From Planctomycetota bacterium (GTDB lineage Bacteria; Planctomycetota; Phycisphaerae; Phycisphaerales; SM1A02), in the NCBI GenBank assembly GCA_022574595.1, contig JACZRS010000004.1, positions 186,001-250,000 on the forward strand: a stretch of 64,000 bases of DNA, given 5' to 3'. The position numbers and the translations under genes are program-made. Position 1 is the first letter of the stretch. Every line of letters starts with the position of its first letter. The notes below the pieces were generated by a model. That model worked only from the letters and a program-made list of their open reading frames with translations, was not told the origin of the DNA and made no database searches. Below, one piece after another: positions 28,540-53,218 of this stretch.

Positions 28540-31524
28540 ATGTTTGACGAGTTCCCAATCCAGTTCGATCACCCCGGTTGGTTGATATTACTCTTACTTA
28601 TAGTACCTGCGATTTTAATCGCTCGGAAAAGTATTGGAGGGTTAAGCAAACGAAAAGCTTATGTCTCGCTGATCATTCGCTCAATGGTAATTTTATTATT
28701 AAGTCTCACACTAGCCCAACCTGTCTGGGAAGAGAGAGGTGAGGGATTGACTGTTACGATTTTACTTGACCGCAGCCAATCGGTTCCTTTGCCTTTGCAG
28801 AAATACGCACTGGATTTTATTCGTAAAGCTGCCGCGCTAAAGGAGAATCCGGAAGATCGTTTATCTGTGATAACCTTGGCCCGAGATGCCACAATCGTGG
28901 CATTGCCTGACAAGTACTCTGCTGTACCTGACCCTATACAAGATCCGCCTGATTTGGCAGCTACAAATCTAGCTGCAGGCGTTCGCACTGCTATTGCCAC
29001 AATGCCTGATGACACGGCAAATCGAATTGTTATCGTCTCAGATGGAAACGAAACAATTGATAACGTGCGTGCAGCAGCAGAATTGGCCAAAGCCAACGAT
29101 GTTCGTATTGATGTATTAGTCTTGGAATATGAACATGAGAACGAAGTACTTTTCGATCGGATAGTTGCACCCGCCCGTGCGCGCCAAGGGCAAGCTGCGG
29201 ATTTGAAACTGGTTCTTAGAAGTAAAGGTACAGCAACCGGCACCATCACTTTAGATATGAACGGTTTGCCGCTTGATCTGAATGGTGATGCCCAGGGTGT
29301 TGGGATGGGTGTTGCTCTTAAACCCGGAGTGAATGCAATTAGAATCCCAATAGCATTTGACGAATCCGGTCCCATGCGTTTCGTTGCACACTTTGAGCCT
29401 GATGATGATAGTGTCGATAGTGTCGCAGCAAATAACGTTGCCATGGCGGTCACTTTCGTTGGTGGCGAGGGTAAGGTGCTGATAATCGATGATGGAAATG
29501 AATCTGAATACTTAGCAAAAGCGCTTACAGATAGCAAAATTACAGTACACATCGGATCGCCGGATGTCTTAGGCAACGGGGCTGTTTACTTAAGCGGTTA
29601 CGATGCGATTGTGTTAGTGAATATCCCACGCTTTGCGGTAAACGATGATGAAGACCCTATGCTCCACGCTTACGTCCATGACATGGGTGGTGGGTTAGTA
29701 ATGATTGGCGGACCTGAATCCTTTGGCGCTGGCGGATGGATTGATTCACAGGTTGCTAAGGTGTTGCCGGTTAAACTTGATCCACCTCAAACTCGCCAGA
29801 TGGTGCGTGGAGCTTTGGGGCTTATCATGCACTCCTGCGAAATGCCGCAAGGTAATTACTGGGGACAGCGCGTGGCTGAAGCTGCTATTGAAGCGCTTTC
29901 AAGCCAGGACTATGCTGGAATTATAGATTGGGGCTTTAATGGAGTTGGCTGGGAATATGGACCTGCGATTGTTGGAAACAAGGTTGCAGCTCTTGCAGCT
30001 ACAAAGAAAATGCTAGTCGGTGATATGCCTGACTTTGCTTCATCAATGACGCTAGCTCTAAAAGATCTTGATCCTCTACCGGCCGGCCAAAAGCATGTCA
30101 TCATTATCTCCGATGGTGATCCTCAACCTCCGCCTAAGAAACTTTTAAATAATTATGTCGCAGCTAGTATTTCAGTTACAACAGTACTAGTCGCTGGTCA
30201 CGGATCACCGGCTGACAGAAAAATGATGAAAGCAATTGCAGCGATAACCGGCGGTAATTTTTATGAAGTTAAAAATCCAAAGAACCTGCCACAAATATTC
30301 ATCAAGGAAGCGCAGATTGTTTCACGATCACTCATTGTTGAAGGTGATTTTCAGCCAACAGTAGTTAATAGTTTACCCGGGCCTGTCGCGGGCTTTGGTG
30401 CGGTTCCTTCTATTGACGGTTATATACTAGTTGCAGAGCGCGAGGGGCTTACACAAATGCCCATCGTTAATGCAACTGATGAAGGCATGGATCCAATTTA
30501 CGCGTATTGGAATTACGGCCTGGGTAAATCAATTGCTTATACACCTGACTTAACAGGCCGATGGGGAAGCGATTGGGTTGGTTGGTCGGAGTTTAAATCG
30601 TTCTGGGAACAGTCCATACGTTGGGTGATGCGCCCCAGCTCGCCAACTAATATGACGATAAATACCAGAAAAGAAGGTGATATAGCCATAGTCGAACTTG
30701 AAGCACTCGATGCAAACGCTTCATACCTTAACTTTCTTAGAACTAGAGCAGTCGTGCTTTCACCTGATGGAGTTGCCCAGCCGCTTGTGATGCAACAAGT
30801 TGGGCCAGGAAGATATCGCGGGCAATTTCCAACCGAAGAAGCGGGTGCTTACCTGGTAAACATTAACTTTGTTGGCGGAAGCGGTGAAGATAAGCTCGAA
30901 GGTAATATCCAAGCTGCGGTTACTGTTCCATATCCTCGGGAATATCGTGCTGTCAAACACAACGCAGCTTTGCTTCACGATTTAGCTAAAATGACAGGAG
31001 GCAGAATAATTAACGGTTCTGATCCCATGTTGGCGGATCTGTTTTACGATGAAGGATTAGAACTTCCGCTTAGCCCTAAAAGCACCTGGGATTTGATGGC
31101 TATTCTTGCTGCTGCTTTATTCCTGTTTGATGTAGCTAATCGCAGATTTTCAATTGATAAAAAAGCCATGGCTGAAGCAGCAGCCAAAGCAGTTGGACGA
31201 CGTGCTGAAGTCGGATCAGATACAGTTGCAGCATGGAAACGTACAAGAGCTAGTGTAGTTAAAGGTAGAGCCAAAGCAGAGCATGCCGTTGTAGCTACAA
31301 AACGATTTGATGCTGATGATGTTGATGCGCAAACCGCAATTGATGTGCAGGCTGAATCAGCAGGCCAGCCTGGTAGCCCAGCAAGAAAATCCGTGCAGCA
31401 AACATCGGTAGCTAAAGAAGATCCTGTTTCAGATGAAGGTGATTACACATCACGTTTATTAGCTGCAAAACGCCGAGCTCGCGGTGAAGATAACAAAGAG
31501 CCCCAAGGTGGTAGCGATGCCTGA
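28540..31524 (+). CDS. Large VWA / glutamine-amidotransferase-like membrane protein
   Basis: 994 residues. An N-terminal BatA-like membrane region (two TM segments, PGWLILLLLIVPAILIA and SMVILLLSLTLAQPVW) leads into a von Willebrand A domain with a complete MIDAS (DRSQS in ILLDRSQSVPLPL), then a beta-sandwich, a class-I-GATase-like segment (GGGLVMIGGPESFGAGGW) and a second VWA-like stretch (HVIIISDGDPQPP). A C-terminal TM (LMAILAALFLFDVANRRF-like) and a long charged tail finish it. Such proteins bind metal and partners and are usually encoded with MoxR AAA+ ATPases, which remodel them. It has a strong Shine-Dalgarno (GGAGAATAGGAG). The stop overlaps the MoxR start by 8 nt. Confidence 0.85.
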   Translation: MFDEFPIQFDHPGWLILLLLIVPAILIARKSIGGLSKRKAYVSLIIRSMVILLLSLTLAQPVWEERGEGLTVTILLDRSQSVPLPLQKYALDFIRKAAALKENPEDRLSVITLARDATIVALPDKYSAVPDPIQDPPDLAATNLAAGVRTAIATMPDDTANRIVIVSDGNETIDNVRAAAELAKANDVRIDVLVLEYEHENEVLFDRIVAPARARQGQAADLKLVLRSKGTATGTITLDMNGLPLDLNGDAQGVGMGVALKPGVNAIRIPIAFDESGPMRFVAHFEPDDDSVDSVAANNVAMAVTFVGGEGKVLIIDDGNESEYLAKALTDSKITVHIGSPDVLGNGAVYLSGYDAIVLVNIPRFAVNDDEDPMLHAYVHDMGGGLVMIGGPESFGAGGWIDSQVAKVLPVKLDPPQTRQMVRGALGLIMHSCEMPQGNYWGQRVAEAAIEALSSQDYAGIIDWGFNGVGWEYGPAIVGNKVAALAATKKMLVGDMPDFASSMTLALKDLDPLPAGQKHVIIISDGDPQPPPKKLLNNYVAASISVTTVLVAGHGSPADRKMMKAIAAITGGNFYEVKNPKNLPQIFIKEAQIVSRSLIVEGDFQPTVVNSLPGPVAGFGAVPSIDGYILVAEREGLTQMPIVNATDEGMDPIYAYWNYGLGKSIAYTPDLTGRWGSDWVGWSEFKSFWEQSIRWVMRPSSPTNMTINTRKEGDIAIVELEALDANASYLNFLRTRAVVLSPDGVAQPLVMQQVGPGRYRGQFPTEEAGAYLVNINFVGGSGEDKLEGNIQAAVTVPYPREYRAVKHNAALLHDLAKMTGGRIINGSDPMLADLFYDEGLELPLSPKSTWDLMAILAAALFLFDVANRRFSIDKKAMAEAAAKAVGRRAEVGSDTVAAWKRTRASVVKGRAKAEHAVVATKRFDADDVDAQTAIDVQAESAGQPGSPARKSVQQTSVAKEDPVSDEGDYTSRLLAAKRRARGEDNKEPQGGSDA

Positions 31525-32560
31525 TTTGGCACCTCTACCAAAACTAGACCTGGCCTTTGAAGATATTGATTCTGTCAAGCAGGCGTGTGCTGATTTTCGC
31601 AAAGTGTTTGATCGCCTTCGCGCGCAAATCGCTAATGCCATGGTCGGGCAGGATTTGATCGTTGAGCAAACACTAATAGCCCTATTTGCCAACGGCCATG
31701 TGTTGCTTGAAGGTGTACCGGGCCTTGGCAAGACTTTATTAGTGCGAACACTTGGCAGCGCTTTAACCTTGCCGTTTTCACGAATTCAATTTACACCCGA
31801 TCTAATGCCTTCAGATATCACCGGTACAAGCGTGGTATTAGAAAATCCAGCAACAGGCAGGCGTGAGTTTACATTCAGGCCTGGGCCGATTTTTGCTCAA
31901 TTAGTTCTCGCCGATGAGATAAATCGGGCTACTCCTAAAAGCCAATCCGCATTGCTTGAAGCAATGCAGGAACGCAGCGTCACCATTGCCGGTGAAACCA
32001 GACATTTGCAGCTACCTTTCTTCGTGCTGGCAACGCAAAATCCTATTGAGCAGGAAGGCACATACCCTCTACCTGAAGCGCAGCTCGACCGATTTTTCTT
32101 TAAGGTAGTAGTACCCTACGCCAGCCGAGGCGAGATCAACAAAATTTTAGACCGAACCACAGCCGGAGTTGCTTCAATCGTTAATCCGGTAATGGATGGT
32201 GAGTATATTTTAGCTGCGCAGCGACTTGCCACAAGGATTGTAGTTTCGCCACATGTACAGGATTATGCGATTCGTTTAATAATGGCAACTCATCCGGATC
32301 ATGAACATAGCGATCCTAAAATGAATGGTTATGTACATATAGGCGTAAGTCCGCGCGGCGCGCAAGCACTGATAAGCGGCGCTAAAGTTCGAGCACTCTT
32401 AGCAGGTAGATACGCAGTTTCGTTTAAAGATATTAAAGCAGTTGCATGCCCCGCCTTAAGGCACCGCATAATCCGAAGCTTCGAAGCAGAAGCCGATGGC
32501 GTAACCACCGATGATATAATTAACGAATTATTGGATACATTACCCAGAGAGTTTGAATAA
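31517..32560 (+). CDS. MoxR-family AAA+ ATPase
   Basis: 347 residues. Walker A GVPGLGKTLL, Walker B/sensor block LADEINRATPKSQSALLEAM, TQNPIEQEGTYPLPEAQLDRF (sensor 1) and the C-terminal lid domain are all present, so it should be an active ATPase of the MoxR group (class with BatA/YeaC-type partners). These ATPases act as chaperones that assemble or activate VWA-domain partners. ATG at 31517 is preceded by AAGGTGG at 5 nt and overlaps the upstream stop; an ATG at 31484 is less likely. It is followed by a heptamer repeat and the DUF58 gene. Confidence 0.93.
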   Translation: MPDLAPLPKLDLAFEDIDSVKQACADFRKVFDRLRAQIANAMVGQDLIVEQTLIALFANGHVLLEGVPGLGKTLLVRTLGSALTLPFSRIQFTPDLMPSDITGTSVVLENPATGRREFTFRPGPIFAQLVLADEINRATPKSQSALLEAMQERSVTIAGETRHLQLPFFVLATQNPIEQEGTYPLPEAQLDRFFFKVVVPYASRGEINKILDRTTAGVASIVNPVMDGEYILAAQRLATRIVVSPHVQDYAIRLIMATHPDHEHSDPKMNGYVHIGVSPRGAQALISGAKVRALLAGRYAVSFKDIKAVACPALRHRIIRSFEAEADGVTTDDIINELLDTLPREFE

Positions 32561-32582: not shown

Positions 32583-32661
<79 letters not shown>

Positions 32662-32671
32662 TCTCTTAACT

Positions 32672-33601
32672 ATGGCAGATTTCGGCGTAACAACTCAGCC
32701 TCGTCCCAAACGCGTAGACGAACTACTTGATTCCAAGCTTATGGCTAAGCTCGATCAAGTGGATATTGTTTCGCGCAAAATCTTTGCGGGTAAATTGCAA
32801 GGCGAACGCCGTAGTAAAAAACGAGGGATCAGCGTCGAGTTTGCCGACTATCGACATTACGTTCACGGCGATGATTTGCGCTTCGTAGATTGGAACATCT
32901 ACGCCAGGCTTGACCGCCTCTTCCTCAAATTATTCTTAGAAGAAGAAGATCTTTCACTAGTAATAGCAGTTGATTGCAGCGCATCAATGGATTGGGGAAA
33001 TCCAAACAAGTTTGTATTTACTCAACAACTGGCCATGGCTTTAGGTTATATTGGCTTAGTAAACAACAACCGCGTCTCATTGTTTGGATTTAATACCGAA
33101 GAATTGCGACCACTTCCAAGTATGCGCGGTAGACGCAGGGCACGCGATATCGGGTCCTGGCTCTTGGATCTTAATCCAGCAGGCTCAAGCGCATTTAACG
33201 AAGCAATGCGCACCATCGCACTTACACGAATAGGTAAAGGCGTCATGATTATCCTCTCTGACTTTATGTTCAAAGAGGGGTACGAGAAAGGTTTGCGCTA
33301 CCTTTCCGGCGGAGGCTACGACATCTTTTGTATGCAAATACTCAGCCCCGAAGAAATTGACCCCGCCAAGCACGGCCTGGCGGGCGATCTACGCCTTACT
33401 GATATTGAGGATGAAGATACAGCTGAAGTTACAGTTAGCGCAGCTTTACTTAAGCGTTACAAAGAGAATCTAAACGCATATTGCGGGAAGCTTCGAGATT
33501 TTGCGGTGAGGCGCGGTATCACTCACATCACAATTGATACTTCACAAGATCTAACAACACTGCTGCTTGATTACCTGCGCAAAAGAGGGCTGCTTAAGTG
33601 A
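32672..33601 (+). CDS. DUF58 protein (VWA-like)
   Basis: 309-residue protein with the DUF58 hallmark GERRSKKRGISVEFADYRHY-VHGDDLRFVDW (positions about 48-78), followed by a VWA fold with DCSASM as the MIDAS-like motif (AVDCSASMDWGNP) and a long helical-sheet remainder. DUF58 proteins are standard partners of MoxR ATPases. No clear Shine-Dalgarno precedes the ATG at 32672; instead the gene starts after the heptamer repeat. The stop overlaps the GTG of the next gene by 4 nt. Confidence 0.9.
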   Translation: MADFGVTTQPRPKRVDELLDSKLMAKLDQVDIVSRKIFAGKLQGERRSKKRGISVEFADYRHYVHGDDLRFVDWNIYARLDRLFLKLFLEEEDLSLVIAVDCSASMDWGNPNKFVFTQQLAMALGYIGLVNNNRVSLFGFNTEELRPLPSMRGRRRARDIGSWLLDLNPAGSSAFNEAMRTIALTRIGKGVMIILSDFMFKEGYEKGLRYLSGGGYDIFCMQILSPEEIDPAKHGLAGDLRLTDIEDEDTAEVTVSAALLKRYKENLNAYCGKLRDFAVRRGITHITIDTSQDLTTLLLDYLRKRGLLK

Positions 33602-35649: not shown

Positions 35650-35727
35650 TTATTCCGCCAGGTCTTCTATGCTTAGATCGTCTTTTGTCATCACATCAGA
35701 CCGAGACAAACCATACCAGCAGTAGTG
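35650..35727 (-). pseudogene. Remnant of an RND transporter 3' end
   Basis: The minus strand here encodes HYCWYGLSRSDVMTKDDL then SIEDLAE and a stop, matching the last 25 residues of the intact RND pump 1.4 kb downstream (HYCWYGLHRSDVITEDDL then SLEELAE). The two 78-bp stretches are about 83% identical without gaps and most changes are conservative. The frame is closed by a TGA a few codons upstream. It is thus a decayed copy of a paralogue's end, or a foreign 3' end carried in with the accessory insert. Confidence 0.7.
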
Positions 35728-35948
35728 TGCCTGGCAATCAAATCAATCCGTGCTGGCTTACCCCCCGCGACAGCCAAGCACTCTATCTTTCGGTTCATCG
35801 TGCCAATGCGGAAGTACCAACCCAAACCACTGCCATTGTATGCGCAGGAATGCCTACTAAATGTTGAGATCCGCAAACTCACAGTGGGTCTTGAGGCAGA
35901 TTCCGCCATTGCTCAATAATAACCGATTCTCCCCTAGTAACCCCTACG
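35728..35948. other. Accessory intergenic sequence, no supported gene
   Basis: About 220 bp left of the phased array. Three short frames are open (two plus, one minus) but none has a start with Shine-Dalgarno or a recognisable domain, so no gene is called. Confidence 0.4.
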
Positions 35949-36001
35949 CGAATACTATCGAATACAACAAGTACTATGAGTACACGAGCACTTACGAGTA
36001 C
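35949..36001. repeat. Phased iteron-like array, motif CGARTAC
   Basis: Six copies of a 7-bp motif (CGAATAC, CGAATAC, CAAGTAC, TGAGTAC, CGAGCAC, CGAGTAC) begin at 35949, 35959, 35968, 35977, 35985 and 35995, a spacing of 8-10 bp that puts them on one face of the helix. A weaker CGAGTTT is at 36009. Such arrays are typical of iterons or multi-site operators. It lies 338 bp upstream of a winged-helix gene. Confidence 0.5.
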
Positions 36002-36338
36002 GGAAATGCGAGTTTAGTTCTCTAAAAATAGAGTCGGAGGTGCTTTTGGATGCCATTTAAGACATTTGAGTTGGCGCACATGTGCTAACTGAGTATGGTG
36101 GGATAGACGACGTTGCGTCAGGGAGTAGTGACGTATGGGTGTACACAAATCCTAGACTAGAGGGTATTTGCGGCGATACTTCTACTGTCAGGATCACGAT
36201 CTGGCGTTGGACGTTGCGGCTCGGTTTGCAGCGAAACGCAAGGGCCCCAATACCAATGGGAATTCCTTGTCCATGGCACTGCAGACCGGGCGCAAGTCCG
36301 GCAACCGATTTTCTTTCGCTGATTTAAGGATGCTCAAA
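36002..36338. other. Leader region of the winged-helix gene
   Basis: From 36168 (TTG) the frame of the winged-helix gene is open and reads plausible protein (RRYFYCQDHDLALDVAARFA), so the true start could be upstream of 36339. No Shine-Dalgarno supports 36168. No other gene or RNA is visible. Confidence 0.35.
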
Positions 36339-36941
36339 ATGACTAAAAGTAAGATAGCTCGGAAGATCGTATCAGAAAAGGCACCCTTATCTAATAAGAA
36401 GACTGGTCACGATAGGGCACGTAAGAAGCGCACTAAGCTGATTGCCAAGCATCTTGCGCAGAGAGATCTGCTCTGGCCTGACGCTGAACAAAGGGTCTGG
36501 AATTGGGGTGAATCCAAGGGCTACGTTCACATACCCCGACTCATACCGCTAGTGATGAAGGTGATCAAGGAGATTAGTCCGAAGCAAGATCCGTCATTAG
36601 TGTACCTTGAACTTTGGACAAGGTGCATGGATGGTGGCTTCTTTGAAGTCGATGATGAAGATGCATGTGCCTATGCGTCAGGTTACACAGGCCAACGATC
36701 TGTGCGAACCTGGAGGGAGCGAATGCGTAAACTGCGTGATCTTGGATTTATCGAGGTCAAGCGATCCGGGAACCGTGAGTTCGGAAGCATCTTAATTATT
36801 AATCCACTCCAAGTTTGTGTTAACCTTAAGAGTGCTAAGAAATCGGGAGTGACCGATGCCTGGTGGACAGCCTTTATTTCACGTGCGAAGAAGATCGGTG
36901 CAGTTATTCCAAGTGCATCAGAGATAAAGGAAAAGGTATAA
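36339..36941 (+). CDS. Winged-helix protein, possibly a replication initiator or regulator
   Basis: 200 residues from ATG 36339 with AAGGA 8 nt upstream. The N-terminus is very basic (MTKSKIARKIVSEKAPLSNK). Residues about 70-170 read as a DNA-binding fold: TGQRSVRTWRERMRKLRDLG and FIEVKRSGNREFGSILIIN have the helix-turn-helix and beta-wing of a winged helix, as in plasmid Rep proteins and some regulators. I do not recognise a precise family. The phased repeats upstream and the absence of a homologous neighbour suggest a small mobile or plasmid-derived unit. No integrase or transposase is seen in the insert. Confidence 0.6.
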   Translation: MTKSKIARKIVSEKAPLSNKKTGHDRARKKRTKLIAKHLAQRDLLWPDAEQRVWNWGESKGYVHIPRLIPLVMKVIKEISPKQDPSLVYLELWTRCMDGGFFEVDDEDACAYASGYTGQRSVRTWRERMRKLRDLGFIEVKRSGNREFGSILIINPLQVCVNLKSAKKSGVTDAWWTAFISRAKKIGAVIPSASEIKEKV

Positions 36942-37105: not shown

Positions 37106-40100
37106 TTATTCCGCCAGTTCTTCTAGGCTTAGATCGTCTTCTGTTATTACATCTGATCGGTGTAGGCCATACCAGCAGTAGTGCAGTATGCCTTTTATGT
37201 CATCCATGATGACCAGAATGCAAGGTAAGACGATCAGGATAAGAACCGTTGCGCTCATTAAGCCGAAGGAAATGCTTACAGCCATGGGAATTAGGAACTT
37301 GGCTTGGAAAGATGTTTCTAACATTAATGGTGTAAGGCCGAGGATCGTTGTTACAGTAGTAAGAAAGATGGGTCGCAATCGATGTCGCCCTGCAAAAACA
37401 AGCGCTTCTTGAATTTCCATGCCCTCTTTGCGTTTTGTGTTATACAAATCCACAAGTATTAGCGAGTCATTTACCACGACTCCGCTAAGCGCCACAAAGC
37501 CTATCAAACTCAGGAACGTCAATTGGAATCCGAGCAAGTAGTGGCCCCAGATTACCCCAATAATACTAAAAGGAACAGCCAACATAACTGCAATCGGCTG
37601 AAGGTAGCTGCCAAACATCCAGGCAAGAATCACGTAGATAATGATGCTTGCAACAAGAAACCCTACGGGTAGAGTTGAAAACGCCTTGGCCATTTGCCTT
37701 TGCTGTCCACCTTTTTCAATATTAAGGCCGGGATACATCGCTTCCAAGGCATCAAACTCATGCTCGATTGCGCCCAAAACCATTTCAGCTCTCACCTTTG
37801 GAGCAGTCGCAGCGGTAACCGTAATAGCCCGCTCCCGATCAACACGATGAATTAACGAATAACTTGTGCCTTCAACAACATCTGCGATCTCACTAAGCGG
37901 GATACGCCGACCATCTGGGGTAATAATATACATATTCTCGATGGCATATAAGCTATTTCTTGTATCCTCATCCAGGCGAACTCGTACCTTGATATCCTCT
38001 CTATGAGCGGAATAAACGTGCGGCTCCAATCCATATAAAGCTCCACGAACCTGGTTAGCCACATCTGCAACGGTCAGGCCCAGGCTTGCCGCTCCAGCTT
38101 TGAGGCTGACCTGCACTTCGCGCTGACCTTTTGCGTTATCATCACCTACGTCAAAAACACCTTGGCTCTGTGTGAGAAGTTGCTTGATCTTCGCAGCTAC
38201 TTTTTCAATGGCATTAGTATCAGGTCCACTAACGATCAGAGTTATATCAGGTCCATCGAACCCACCCTGGATTGCACCAAAGGATATTCGTTCAAGATCA
38301 TTTATAATGCCGATCTTCTCTCTTATTGCTGCGATCACTTCAGAAGATTCTCTACCCCCCGCTGCTTGTCGTTTTTCTACTGCGTGAAGTTCGATAAATA
38401 TTTGAGCTACATGGCCGCCGGTACCACTGCGTTGGCCGGTTTGAATATCCGTGCTTATGCCGATGAGCGTTGATACGGATTTGACCTCTTTATCCAAGGA
38501 AGTAGCTGCGTTTTCAATTCGCTTGACAATTTTCTCGGTACGCTCAATTGGGGTTCCGATAGGCATGCGCAGATCAACAATAAGAGTTTCCGAATCATTA
38601 TTACCCAGGAATGTAAATTCGCTGTGCCCCCCTGCGACCAAACCTAGAGAAACGATTAATGCAGCAATGGCTGCGGTAAAAGTCGCGTAGCGATTTCGCA
38701 GCAGGAATTCCAACAGTCTTGCATATCCGGGAATGATTTTATTTTGGAGGATGCTATCACGCTTTGCTTCATACACACCAATCCAGCGCGAGAATTTACG
38801 AGGTTTAGCCCTATCGCGACTAAGCAAGCTGTGCCCCATATGACTGGGCAATATCAGTATCGATTCAATCAAGCTAAATGAAAGTGCGCAAATCACAACC
38901 AAAGGCAGAGCGCCCATAAGATCACCAATTTGCCCTTGAATAAATCGAAGCGGCAGGAATGCCACAATGCTGGTTAGTACCGTAGCCACGACAGGCCAAA
39001 ATACTTGTTCGGTACCCTTTATTGCTGCAACTAATGCGGGTTCATTACGATCATACCTGGACTGTATGTTTTCTGCGACAACGATTGCATCATCAACCAG
39101 CAGCCCCAGCACCACAATCAATCCGAACATAGTCAGTAAATTAAGTGTGATACCCACAATCTGCATTATGATCAAAGTTCCACACAAGGCGATAACCAAT
39201 CCCACGCCCACCCACAATGCAACTCGCCAATTAAGAAAAATAAGTAAAGTCGCAAAAACCAGCATCGCGCCCCACATGGCATTGCGAGTAAGTAAGTCTA
39301 ATCGGCCTTCTATAAAACGGGCAAGATCAGAATGTGTCTGCACTTTGCAATCAGCAGGAAGCAAGCTGGCGCGGCTTTGACCAAGTTCAAATGCTTCAAG
39401 ACGCTTTGTACGCAGCTGATTACTCGACTGAATAGAATCGCCACGAGCTGCATTACGGATATTATTGACTACACCAAATAATTTGTCAGTTACCCTTGCT
39501 TCAAACTGGGCATCTCTATTACCCGATGCAAATTTGATTCCCGATACATAAGCTCGCGCCATCTCCGCAATTTTCACCGCATCCTGATCGCCAGTCTTAA
39601 AGACTGTCAGACTGACCGCTGGCTGGCCGTTAAAGCGCGTAATAATCTGTTCATCTACGTAATACTCACGGACTGTGGCTATATCTCCAAGGCGTAAAGC
39701 CTGTCCCTCAGCGCTGGCCTTGATGACGATCTCTCGAATCGCCTGGGCTTGCTCTGGAACGCCAATGGTTCGCACCGCCACATCACCAAGGCCGGTTCGC
39801 ACTGATCCACCTGGCATATCCGCCATCCATTGACTTACAGTATTAGATATTTGCGGCAAGCTCAGGCGATGTTCAAGCAAGGCACTTGGAGTTACATTTA
39901 CTCGTATCTCATAATCGCGAACTCCGGAGACAACAATATCACCCATGCCCGGCAAGCTTTCCAGATCATCGCGAATAGCATGAATGCCACGTTTTAGTGA
40001 TTCTTCATCCGCAGTTCCATATAGCACAACCATTATCGTGGGTAGTTGAGGTTCAAATTCAGTAACATCAATTTTCTCAGCTTGATCGGGCAGGTCGCGC

Positions 40101-40447
40101 AAAGCATCGATGGCGCTTTGGATGTCGTCGACAGCTTCTCCCACATCGTCGATTCCGGAATAAAATTCGACTATTATGCCTCCGCCGCCTTCTGATAGAG
40201 TTGTTGTTAACCGGTCAACATCGTCAAGATTAGCGATTGCATCCTCGACTTTGATAGCCATTCCCTCTTCGACTTCTTGAGGGGTAGCGCCGGGGTAAGG
40301 CAAATTAACCATAGCTGAGTCAGGCGTTGTATCTGGGAAGAACTCTCGCGTGAGATTAATAGCCGCAGCAACTCCGCCGATTATCGCCGCCGCCATAATT
40401 AGATTGACGGGAACCGGATGTGTAACACCAAAGCGCGGGAAGCTCAC
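37106..40447 (-). CDS. RND-family efflux pump, AcrB/MexB (HAE1-like) type
   Basis: 1113-residue inner-membrane transporter with the RND pattern of a TM helix, large periplasmic loop, TM block, second loop and TM block. Family landmarks are FPDTTPDSAMVNLPYPGATP early in the sequence, GLVIALCGTLIIMQ and the membrane-embedded VVLGLLVDDAIVVAEN (helix IV acidic pair), with matching VALSGVVVNDSLILVDLYN in the second half. It exports small molecules by proton exchange. GTG start overlaps the stop of the membrane fusion gene (GTGA). Substrate unknown. No outer-membrane TolC-like gene is present. A decayed copy of its 3' end lies at 35650-35727. Confidence 0.92.
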   Translation of the reverse strand: MSFPRFGVTHPVPVNLIMAAAIIGGVAAAINLTREFFPDTTPDSAMVNLPYPGATPQEVEEGMAIKVEDAIANLDDVDRLTTTLSEGGGGIIVEFYSGIDDVGEAVDDIQSAIDALRDLPDQAEKIDVTEFEPQLPTIMVVLYGTADEESLKRGIHAIRDDLESLPGMGDIVVSGVRDYEIRVNVTPSALLEHRLSLPQISNTVSQWMADMPGGSVRTGLGDVAVRTIGVPEQAQAIREIVIKASAEGQALRLGDIATVREYYVDEQIITRFNGQPAVSLTVFKTGDQDAVKIAEMARAYVSGIKFASGNRDAQFEARVTDKLFGVVNNIRNAARGDSIQSSNQLRTKRLEAFELGQSRASLLPADCKVQTHSDLARFIEGRLDLLTRNAMWGAMLVFATLLIFLNWRVALWVGVGLVIALCGTLIIMQIVGITLNLLTMFGLIVVLGLLVDDAIVVAENIQSRYDRNEPALVAAIKGTEQVFWPVVATVLTSIVAFLPLRFIQGQIGDLMGALPLVVICALSFSLIESILILPSHMGHSLLSRDRAKPRKFSRWIGVYEAKRDSILQNKIIPGYARLLEFLLRNRYATFTAAIAALIVSLGLVAGGHSEFTFLGNNDSETLIVDLRMPIGTPIERTEKIVKRIENAATSLDKEVKSVSTLIGISTDIQTGQRSGTGGHVAQIFIELHAVEKRQAAGGRESSEVIAAIREKIGIINDLERISFGAIQGGFDGPDITLIVSGPDTNAIEKVAAKIKQLLTQSQGVFDVGDDNAKGQREVQVSLKAGAASLGLTVADVANQVRGALYGLEPHVYSAHREDIKVRVRLDEDTRNSLYAIENMYIITPDGRRIPLSEIADVVEGTSYSLIHRVDRERAITVTAATAPKVRAEMVLGAIEHEFDALEAMYPGLNIEKGGQQRQMAKAFSTLPVGFLVASIIIYVILAWMFGSYLQPIAVMLAVPFSIIGVIWGHYLLGFQLTFLSLIGFVALSGVVVNDSLILVDLYNTKRKEGMEIQEALVFAGRHRLRPIFLTTVTTILGLTPLMLETSFQAKFLIPMAVSISFGLMSATVLILIVLPCILVIMDDIKGILHYCWYGLHRSDVITEDDLSLEELAE

Positions 40448-52810: not shown

Positions 52811-53026
52811 GGCTCATACCTCATCCCTCATGTTGCTCGGAATCCGCCGAGGCGGGGTTTCCTCCATGCCTCTTCCTCCGCAAGATAGGGAAATGCTACA
52901 CTTATTATACGAGAAGTTAGGCTAATTAGGTCAACAAAAACACTTTTCCATAGATGTATTTATTTTGGCTTATCAATCAGGGATAACACTCAGATAACAA
53001 GGCTTCAAGGCAGTTTGTCAAGAAAA

Positions 53027-53086
53027 CTGTCAGTAAAACCGTCAGTAAAAGCGTACGTAAAACTGTACGTAAAGCTGTACCTAAAC
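53027..53086. repeat. Five-copy degenerate 12-bp tandem repeat
   Basis: Units CTGTCAGTAAAA, CCGTCAGTAAAA, GCGTACGTAAAA, CTGTACGTAAAG and CTGTACCTAAAC run head to tail. The pattern is regular but decaying from left to right. No spacers, so not a CRISPR. Confidence 0.75.
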
Positions 53087-53218
53087 ACTGACAAGAAGTT
53101 GACAAACCCCTGGTTACTGAGGCGATTGGCGGGGAGCCATGCTTTGAACGCTTCCCTATCGGGGCGCGGCTAAACGGTCTTTTCTCAATGCCACGATGCC
53201 ACGATGCCATTTAAGAAA

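Follow-up and report, generated by a model that had tools for sequence, protein, structure and literature searches.

The array of short direct repeats described here and the gene for a winged-helix protein downstream of it appear to be inherited as one unit, a portable and autoregulated DNA-binding switch; judging from the sequence comparisons, we give this reading a probability of about 55%. The unit recurs on plasmids, phages, and chromosomes, often by unrelated anti-phage genes, and is therefore likelier to be a portable switch than an origin of replication. Our main finding is this broader picture of a portable unit that stands beside interchangeable defence genes. The copy in the window (the whole 64,000-nucleotide stretch of DNA that was analysed, positions 186001-250000 of contig 18 of the genome; Table 1) is probably such a switch without cargo, a small insert left by site-specific integration. 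The first-pass annotation of the window had proposed either an iteron-like origin or a cooperative autoregulated operator. The operator reading is favoured over the replicon reading, in an amended form in which the operator is part of a portable switch and the array is conserved with its gene.

Table 1 Features of the window around the array, and loci with hairpin-bearing leaders.
Feature	Position	Strand	Basis
Second, displaced copy of the RND efflux gene's 3' end (last 25 codons plus stop); att-like left edge	35650..35727	-	83% over 78 nt
C-runs CCCCTAGTAACCCC, two CCCC runs directly 5' of the array	35931..35944	+	Sequence
Array, six GARTAC-like units	35949..36001	+	Sequence, shuffles, genome pattern search
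Leader between array and gene, non-coding	36002..36338	+	No alphaproteobacterial hairpin loop, no sigma-70-type match on + strand
AAGGA, ribosome-binding-site-like, 8 bp 5' of ATG	36326..36330	+	Sequence
Winged-helix gene, 200 aa, pI 10.0	36339..36941	+	ORF, alignment, AlphaFold2 model
Intact RND 3' end; att-like right edge	37106..37183	-	Repeat comparison
Hairpin-bearing leaders at L007, L008, L010-L012, L017, L018, L020, L022, L024, L027, L029, L032, L033, L035, L036, L042, L044-L048, L050			

The units of the array in the window were GAATAC (position 35950), GAATAC (35960), AAGTAC (35969), GAGTAC (35978), GAGCAC (35986), and GAGTAC (35996), set at steps of 10, 9, 9, 8, and 10 bp. Six 7-bp CGARTAC motifs at 8-10 bp had been described earlier; the number of units and the spacing were confirmed, whereas exact CGARTAC was present in three of the six and the array as a whole consisted of GARTAC-like hexamers. 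The units had also been placed on one face of the helix. At 10.5 bp per turn, however, they lay at 0, 343, 291, 240, 154, and 137 degrees, a progressive drift of about 220 degrees, and therefore share no common face. When the 900 nt upstream of the gene were shuffled 200 times by mononucleotides, no shuffle matched the score of the array. It was the sole chain to reach threshold 6.0 when both strands of the window were searched, and a three-unit array pattern had no second site in the 4.09 Mb genome. The CGARTAC heptamer by itself showed no enrichment in the window, with 12 occurrences against 9.25 expected, and Tandem Repeats Finder did not report the array.

When the motif was looked for elsewhere, as the first-pass annotation had suggested, arrays recurred upstream of most relatives of the gene. 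The array search over the loci used three motif variants, and its counts omit L052, in which the gene is truncated at the contig end. A GANNAC search with one mismatch allowed gave arrays without an equal among 200 shuffles in 26 of 48 loci. At threshold 6.0, a chain at -180 to -520 was found in 35 of 53 loci, and in 30 of the 43 that remained after the near-duplicates L005, L019, L021, L031, L034, L038-L040, L043, and L051 were omitted; elsewhere in the same loci there were two chains in 1.30 million strand-bases, one of which was a second copy on the same plasmid. At threshold 5.4, the counts were 39 of 53 loci (33 of 43 non-redundant) as against four chains elsewhere. That the array might not be conserved with the gene had been foreseen as one finding that would overturn the earlier reading; the array was found to be conserved with it at the 30 non-redundant loci mentioned above. 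The loci found later behaved similarly: 11 of 15 passed threshold 6.0, each with 0 of 200 shuffles as good, and L098 and L108 (the latter being the contig of L021) scored 5.4, with 1 and 0 of 200 shuffles as good, respectively. L096 and L103 failed the array test, with C-runs and degenerate units still visible. Most loci that failed the array threshold had, by eye, units at uneven steps.

The step averaged 8.92 bp across the 30 loci that have a clear array, in which 202 to 461 bp separated the array from the start codon. The commonest units across loci were GAGCAC, CAGCAC, GATACC, and GATAAC. A run of at least four C within 50 nt stood 5' of the array in 21 of these 30 loci and on its 3' side in three; it was also present 5' of the array in seven of the 15 later loci. 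The AT content of 100 nt was higher after the array than before it in all 29 comparable loci. Each unit carried one array in a single orientation. A two-ended transposon was rejected, as no second or inverted array was found at threshold 6.0 in the 53 loci, save for the second plasmid copy of L057 and a weak chain in L036. Furthermore, among the 40 classed rows of the protein tree, the array class (NNAC or TACC) showed a single change, on a branch with support of 100/99; in this comparison L033 was classed on two units and L042 on one. The tree itself had 41 rows, omitting L050 and L057 in addition to the near-duplicates, and its remaining row, L056, has no array class. The best support for the protein reading the array comes from this co-conservation and from a class that follows the tree.

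The basic winged-helix protein that had been placed 338 bp past the array was borne out by the reading frame, the isoelectric point, and a structural prediction. The frame extends without a stop upstream to a TTG at 36168, which would give 257 aa, but the aligned relatives begin at or after the ATG. The protein contains 40 lysine and arginine residues and 22 aspartate and glutamate residues. In an AlphaFold2 model built with 26 relatives (mean pLDDT 85.7), residues 62-185 were predicted to form a generic winged helix. No family in Pfam, NCBIfam, or PADLOC was above its cut-off for this protein, and a PDB sequence search gave no match to the family. Comparison of the model by fold gave no Z of 8 or more, with matches within background; the neighbours TFIIE, RPC62, TrmBL2, and the initiator chains 4pql, 4pt7, and 5kbj, all with Z below 8, indicate "winged helix" alone. 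Foldseek found nothing at E 0.001 in the PDB or BFVD. The WYL domain was absent from all 12 members scanned (Pfam, E 0.1), domain scans detected no STAS domain, and no sensor domain or inducer was apparent. The protein thus belongs to a winged-helix family without a name in Pfam, NCBIfam, or PADLOC, and no description of the family was found in the accessible parts of the literature on wHTH proteins with direct repeats ahead of diverse defence genes. On the protein tree, the window protein stands alone on a long branch, so that function by analogy is weaker for it.

A tblastn search of 72,556 plasmid records found relatives of the protein on 164, of which 95 reached at least 80% coverage, and none shared as much as 60% identity. 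An Enterobacter relative as the query gave an equal number of plasmid records and the same ten leading genus counts. One of 50,697 phage records and one viral contig also carried a relative. Scanning genome contigs with patterns drawn from five relatives of alphaproteobacterial origin, a choice biased toward that class, gave 37 loci. In the taxonomic family of the window, the gene was present in the window's genome alone among 181 genomes, a further match at E 0.009 being short and containing stops; likewise, one of 392 genomes of the phylum was positive, again that of the window. In four alphaproteobacterial families, chosen for having a positive member and with the starting genomes counted, 4 of 295, 6 of 307, 5 of 308, and 5 of 309 genomes were positive. 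Owing to this sparse occurrence across families and phylum, we regard the gene as rare and scattered, and presumably spread by horizontal transfer, as far as sequence distribution can indicate.

Subsequently, the genes beside the unit were compared with the PADLOC models. Among 33 neighbours behind the winged-helix gene, which lay within about 0.8 kb past it save for the second gene of L045 (about 1 kb) and six of which were on the other strand, 13 had a match with E below 1e-14, as against none of ten upstream neighbours (Fisher one-sided p = 0.016); these controls came from ten loci of the first and second sets and were not always the nearest ORF. The strong matches numbered eight of ten in the first set, two of ten in the second, none of the three enterobacterial second genes, and three of ten in the later set, for which, having no control of its own, p was 0.105 against the same ten upstream genes. 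Most of the first ten loci had been picked after their downstream proteins were read, so that eight of ten overstates the effect and the later three of ten is the fairer estimate.

The matches in the first set were PifA (9e-123), PD-T7-1 (2e-155), GajA (4e-110), PDC-S19 (1e-156), AbiJ (4e-19), an AAA/SMC protein (LmuB, 7e-16), PDC-M63A (9e-19; the second gene on, on the opposite strand), and the SIR2 protein of an Argonaute pair (1e-171), followed by a short Argonaute gene. Those in the second set were PD-T4-5/Abi_2 and a type II restriction enzyme, and those in the later set were PD-T4-5 twice and a PDC-S58/ApeA-like protein. Weak matches at L006, L017, L024, L100, and L103 were left uncounted, and the neighbour at L016 had no PADLOC match. 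Eleven cargo labels were spread over 14 loci, with protein and array constant. A position directly upstream of unrelated defence genes holds for the family but not for the window copy.

At L023, L028, L030, L031, L034, and L105, a DinJ-like gene to the left is transcribed away from the unit and a YafQ-like gene lies within 15 bp behind the winged-helix gene, and the unit therefore stands between the halves of a toxin-antitoxin pair. The relative at L030 comes from Caulobacter sp. Root1455. The pair at L031 (L031:3841-5353) matches the solved DinJ and YafQ, the YafQ-like gene of L105 had no PADLOC match, and at L023 PifA comes after the YafQ-like toxin. On enterobacterial ColE1-type plasmids, the second genes (L004:3201-3755, L005:1217-1780, and L013:2087-2632) encode 181-187 aa and overlap or abut the winged-helix gene; none had a match in Pfam or PADLOC, nor that of L005 in the PDB, and we regard them as candidate defence genes. 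On the Rhizobium phaseoli plasmid L008, the unit edges a variable spot beside ugpC, at which other strains carry, for example, DUF262 or DUF3732 proteins.

The leader between array and gene was also compared. The loop [GT]TCCA[AC]AC occurred in the 300-nt leader of 23 of the 43 non-redundant loci, with 37 occurrences in 12,900 leader bases; the remainder of these loci, 807,082 strand-bases, contained 41. At the sites defined by this loop, the arms paired at 5.4 of seven positions, compared with 3.6 when the right arms were swapped (the largest of 1,000 such values being 4.05), and 29 distinct stems were counted. Each such leader had one to four hairpin-like elements, in which the loop TCC[AC][AC]A[CT]C was conserved and the stems covaried. 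No Rfam family reached its gathering score in the five hairpin-bearing leaders scanned (L010, L011, L012, L045, and L050). The conserved loop was absent from the leader in the window. These hairpins would offer a new RNA element for study.

In the switch that we propose, the winged-helix protein would assemble head to tail on the direct repeats, with a turn of about 50 degrees from one protomer to the next, and a cooperative filament would grow from the array in the direction of a more distant downstream promoter. The filament would keep its own operon low and, in the DinJ-YafQ loci, also the divergent antitoxin promoter, until some signal relieved the repression; in many alphaproteobacterial loci, the leader RNA and its one to four conserved-loop hairpins may provide a further level of control. 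Several points weigh against this reading. The array is far from the promoter: at L005 some 140 bp separate it from the best promoter-like site that follows, both being upstream of the gene, and in the window no promoter-like site was found on the + strand after the array. The window copy is without cargo, and the ORF listings of L008, L033, L037, and L044 likewise showed no recognisable same-strand cargo close behind the gene. The two later loci that fail the array test, the enterobacterial second genes that match nothing, and the modest share of strong matches in the later set also tell against it.

Many anti-phage systems are toxic to their host, which raises the question of how they are silenced. 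If the switch is real, one transferable regulator with a readable DNA target would give a handle on about ten unrelated systems, and new defence genes could be found behind the unit, the enterobacterial second genes being an example. We know of no tie between BldC and defence genes. BldC resembles the proposed model in forming cooperative multimers on direct repeats, but is a 68-residue MerR-like developmental regulator of Streptomyces (PMC5859096). RptR, the repressor of a type I RM/DarTG2 island, is like our family the first gene of a defence operon and represses its own promoter via modular, cooperative binding to 9-bp direct repeats; it differs in its size of 9 kDa and in its three TAGCTA-palindrome repeats overlapping the -10 box (PMC12255303), compared with five to eight non-palindromic hexamers far upstream here. 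BrxR and CapW are similarly described as regulators tied to diverse immune operons, but they carry a WYL domain (PMC9122601, PMC9122588), for which the 12 members scanned here gave no match. The CapK-CapS regulator is also encoded ahead of diverse immune operons, yet combines STAS and wHTH domains with a partner kinase (PMC13373217), and no such domain was detected here. By analogy with RptR, BldC, and the regulators of immune operons, each step of the mechanism would be possible.

A broader form of the proposal, which we regard as doubtful, is that the family, the array, and in many alphaproteobacterial loci the leader RNA form a universal head for defence, standing ahead of interchangeable anti-phage or toxin genes. 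The cargo would then be switched on by dissolution of the filament at infection or plasmid entry, and in some carriers the array may also act on copy number or segregation.

We also consider it unlikely that the unit serves plasmid maintenance, with a centromere-like array, a single-protein segregation factor resembling StbA, and the defence genes as mere passengers. The 164 plasmid records with relatives would agree with this, and a protein paired with direct repeats near its own promoter follows the plan of StbA and the stbDRs of R388, where a plasmid protein binds short direct repeats around its own promoter (PMC3098194). The stbDRs, however, are given there as two sets of five 9-bp repeats, 2 bp apart, and StbA as functioning in segregation and transfer (PMC3098194). 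Kinship to StbA in sequence was rejected (hhalign probability 0.2%). Furthermore, the unit is also found outside plasmids (in chromosomes, one phage, and one viral contig), two carriers already own ParA/ParG or MipZ, and the frequent defence neighbours and the straddling by DinJ and YafQ would be left unexplained.

It is improbable, in our estimate, that the protein itself is an anti-phage or anti-plasmid factor that interferes with rival coupling proteins as PifC does, the array being its autoregulatory site. Copies without evident cargo exist, as such a factor would allow. PifC of F is likewise an annotated transcriptional repressor encoded just ahead of a P-loop NTPase gene, which we take to be pifA, and at L023 the unit lies ahead of a PifA homologue. 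The product of pifC, which precedes that NTPase gene on F, blocks the conjugation of rival plasmids (PMC5696584). PifC differs, however, in being a protein of 362 aa with unrelated sequence, no such array occurs in that stretch of F, and a candidate kinship was discarded (hhalign probability 0.6%). For the present protein, a DNA-binding fold is the sole prediction from the model.

The edges of the unit bear on a further alternative, to which we likewise give little credence, namely that it is a landing or recombination site that captures defence genes, DNA binding serving recombination or integration. Varied neighbours behind a constant unit would suit such a platform, as would the att-like repeats that flank the window copy. 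In the other 45 loci, however, exact matches between the flanks (3.5 kb on the left and 6 kb on the right) were absent or were 14-17 bp long and scattered, the exception being L013, whose record ends share a 753-bp duplication, and the single array in one orientation per unit also argues against capture. As general ends of a cassette, the flanking repeats were rejected, being convincing in the window alone.

In the window, an identical 17-bp block occurs at 35711-35727 and 37167-37183, inside the 78-nt repeat derived from the 3' end of the RND efflux gene (37106-40447), and the array and the winged-helix gene lie between these 17-mers, in an insert of 1,456 bp. The "small integrated element" of the first-pass annotation therefore stands as an insert of this length between two copies of the RND 3' end. 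These copies differ at 13 nt; ten codons differ, five of them silently, so that five of 25 residues differ, and both copies are in frame with no frameshift or early stop. The duplicated end and the identical core probably fit integration at the 3' end of the gene, the element's copy restoring it, as read from the sequence, while the left edge may instead derive from a tandem duplicate of the RND gene that has decayed. At the RND loci of 11 relatives (L059-L069; about 1.5 kb past the gene, and less than 100 bp in L066), neither a second 3' end nor a winged-helix gene was found, and their downstream DNA was too divergent to define an empty site. According to the ORF list, the insert has no ORF above 81 aa other than the winged-helix gene and hence no recombinase; since it also has no cargo, the window copy is an orphan or a remnant.

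Finally, the replication functions of the carriers were compared. The winged-helix gene was not the sole candidate replication function on 12 of the 15 plasmids examined, which had another replicon, the remaining three being L007, L011, and L054 (the megaplasmid L008 is outside the 15). ColE1-type RNAI was found on L004, L005, L013, L014, L055, and L057, and annotated initiators (one RepM, two RepA, and one TrfA) on L009, L010, L012, and a Burkholderia plasmid. The 4,037-bp circle L050 and the contig L045 have their own initiators resembling annotated ones, for which PDB sequence searches gave no match. When the protein was searched against plasmid Rep families, as the first-pass annotation had advised, one of the 12 members scanned gave weak matches to the PHROG initiator families 270 and 428 (E 0.07 and 0.085), and nothing was above the cut-off in Pfam, NCBIfam, or the PDB. 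An iteron origin served by a small initiator, perhaps as an additional or conditional replicon, would suit the C-run, the phased repeats, and the AT-rich flank (features that are present but not specific to origins), as well as the weak PHROG matches and a loose likeness of the predicted fold to the winged helices of initiators and phage replication protein O, but in view of the other replicons, the copies in chromosomes, the fold matches within background, and the lack of a Rep match above noise, we consider it very unlikely.

Two carriers showed peculiarities of assembly. The 6265-bp contig of L050 wraps the 4,037-bp circle, which has the unit in addition to its initiator. The record of L013 (NZ_CP120525.1) is identical over 753 bp at both ends, and the true plasmid is therefore probably 4,350 bp long, which is the length of a record whose winged-helix gene is 99.5% identical to that of L013.

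Other repeats were observed in the window. At 32583-32661, between the ORFs 31484-32560 and 32672-33601, the heptamer CTGACTC is repeated in 11.3 copies with 97% matches and resembles a length-variable tract. Imperfect 12-bp repeats, AAAACTGTAAGT, lie at 53023-53090.
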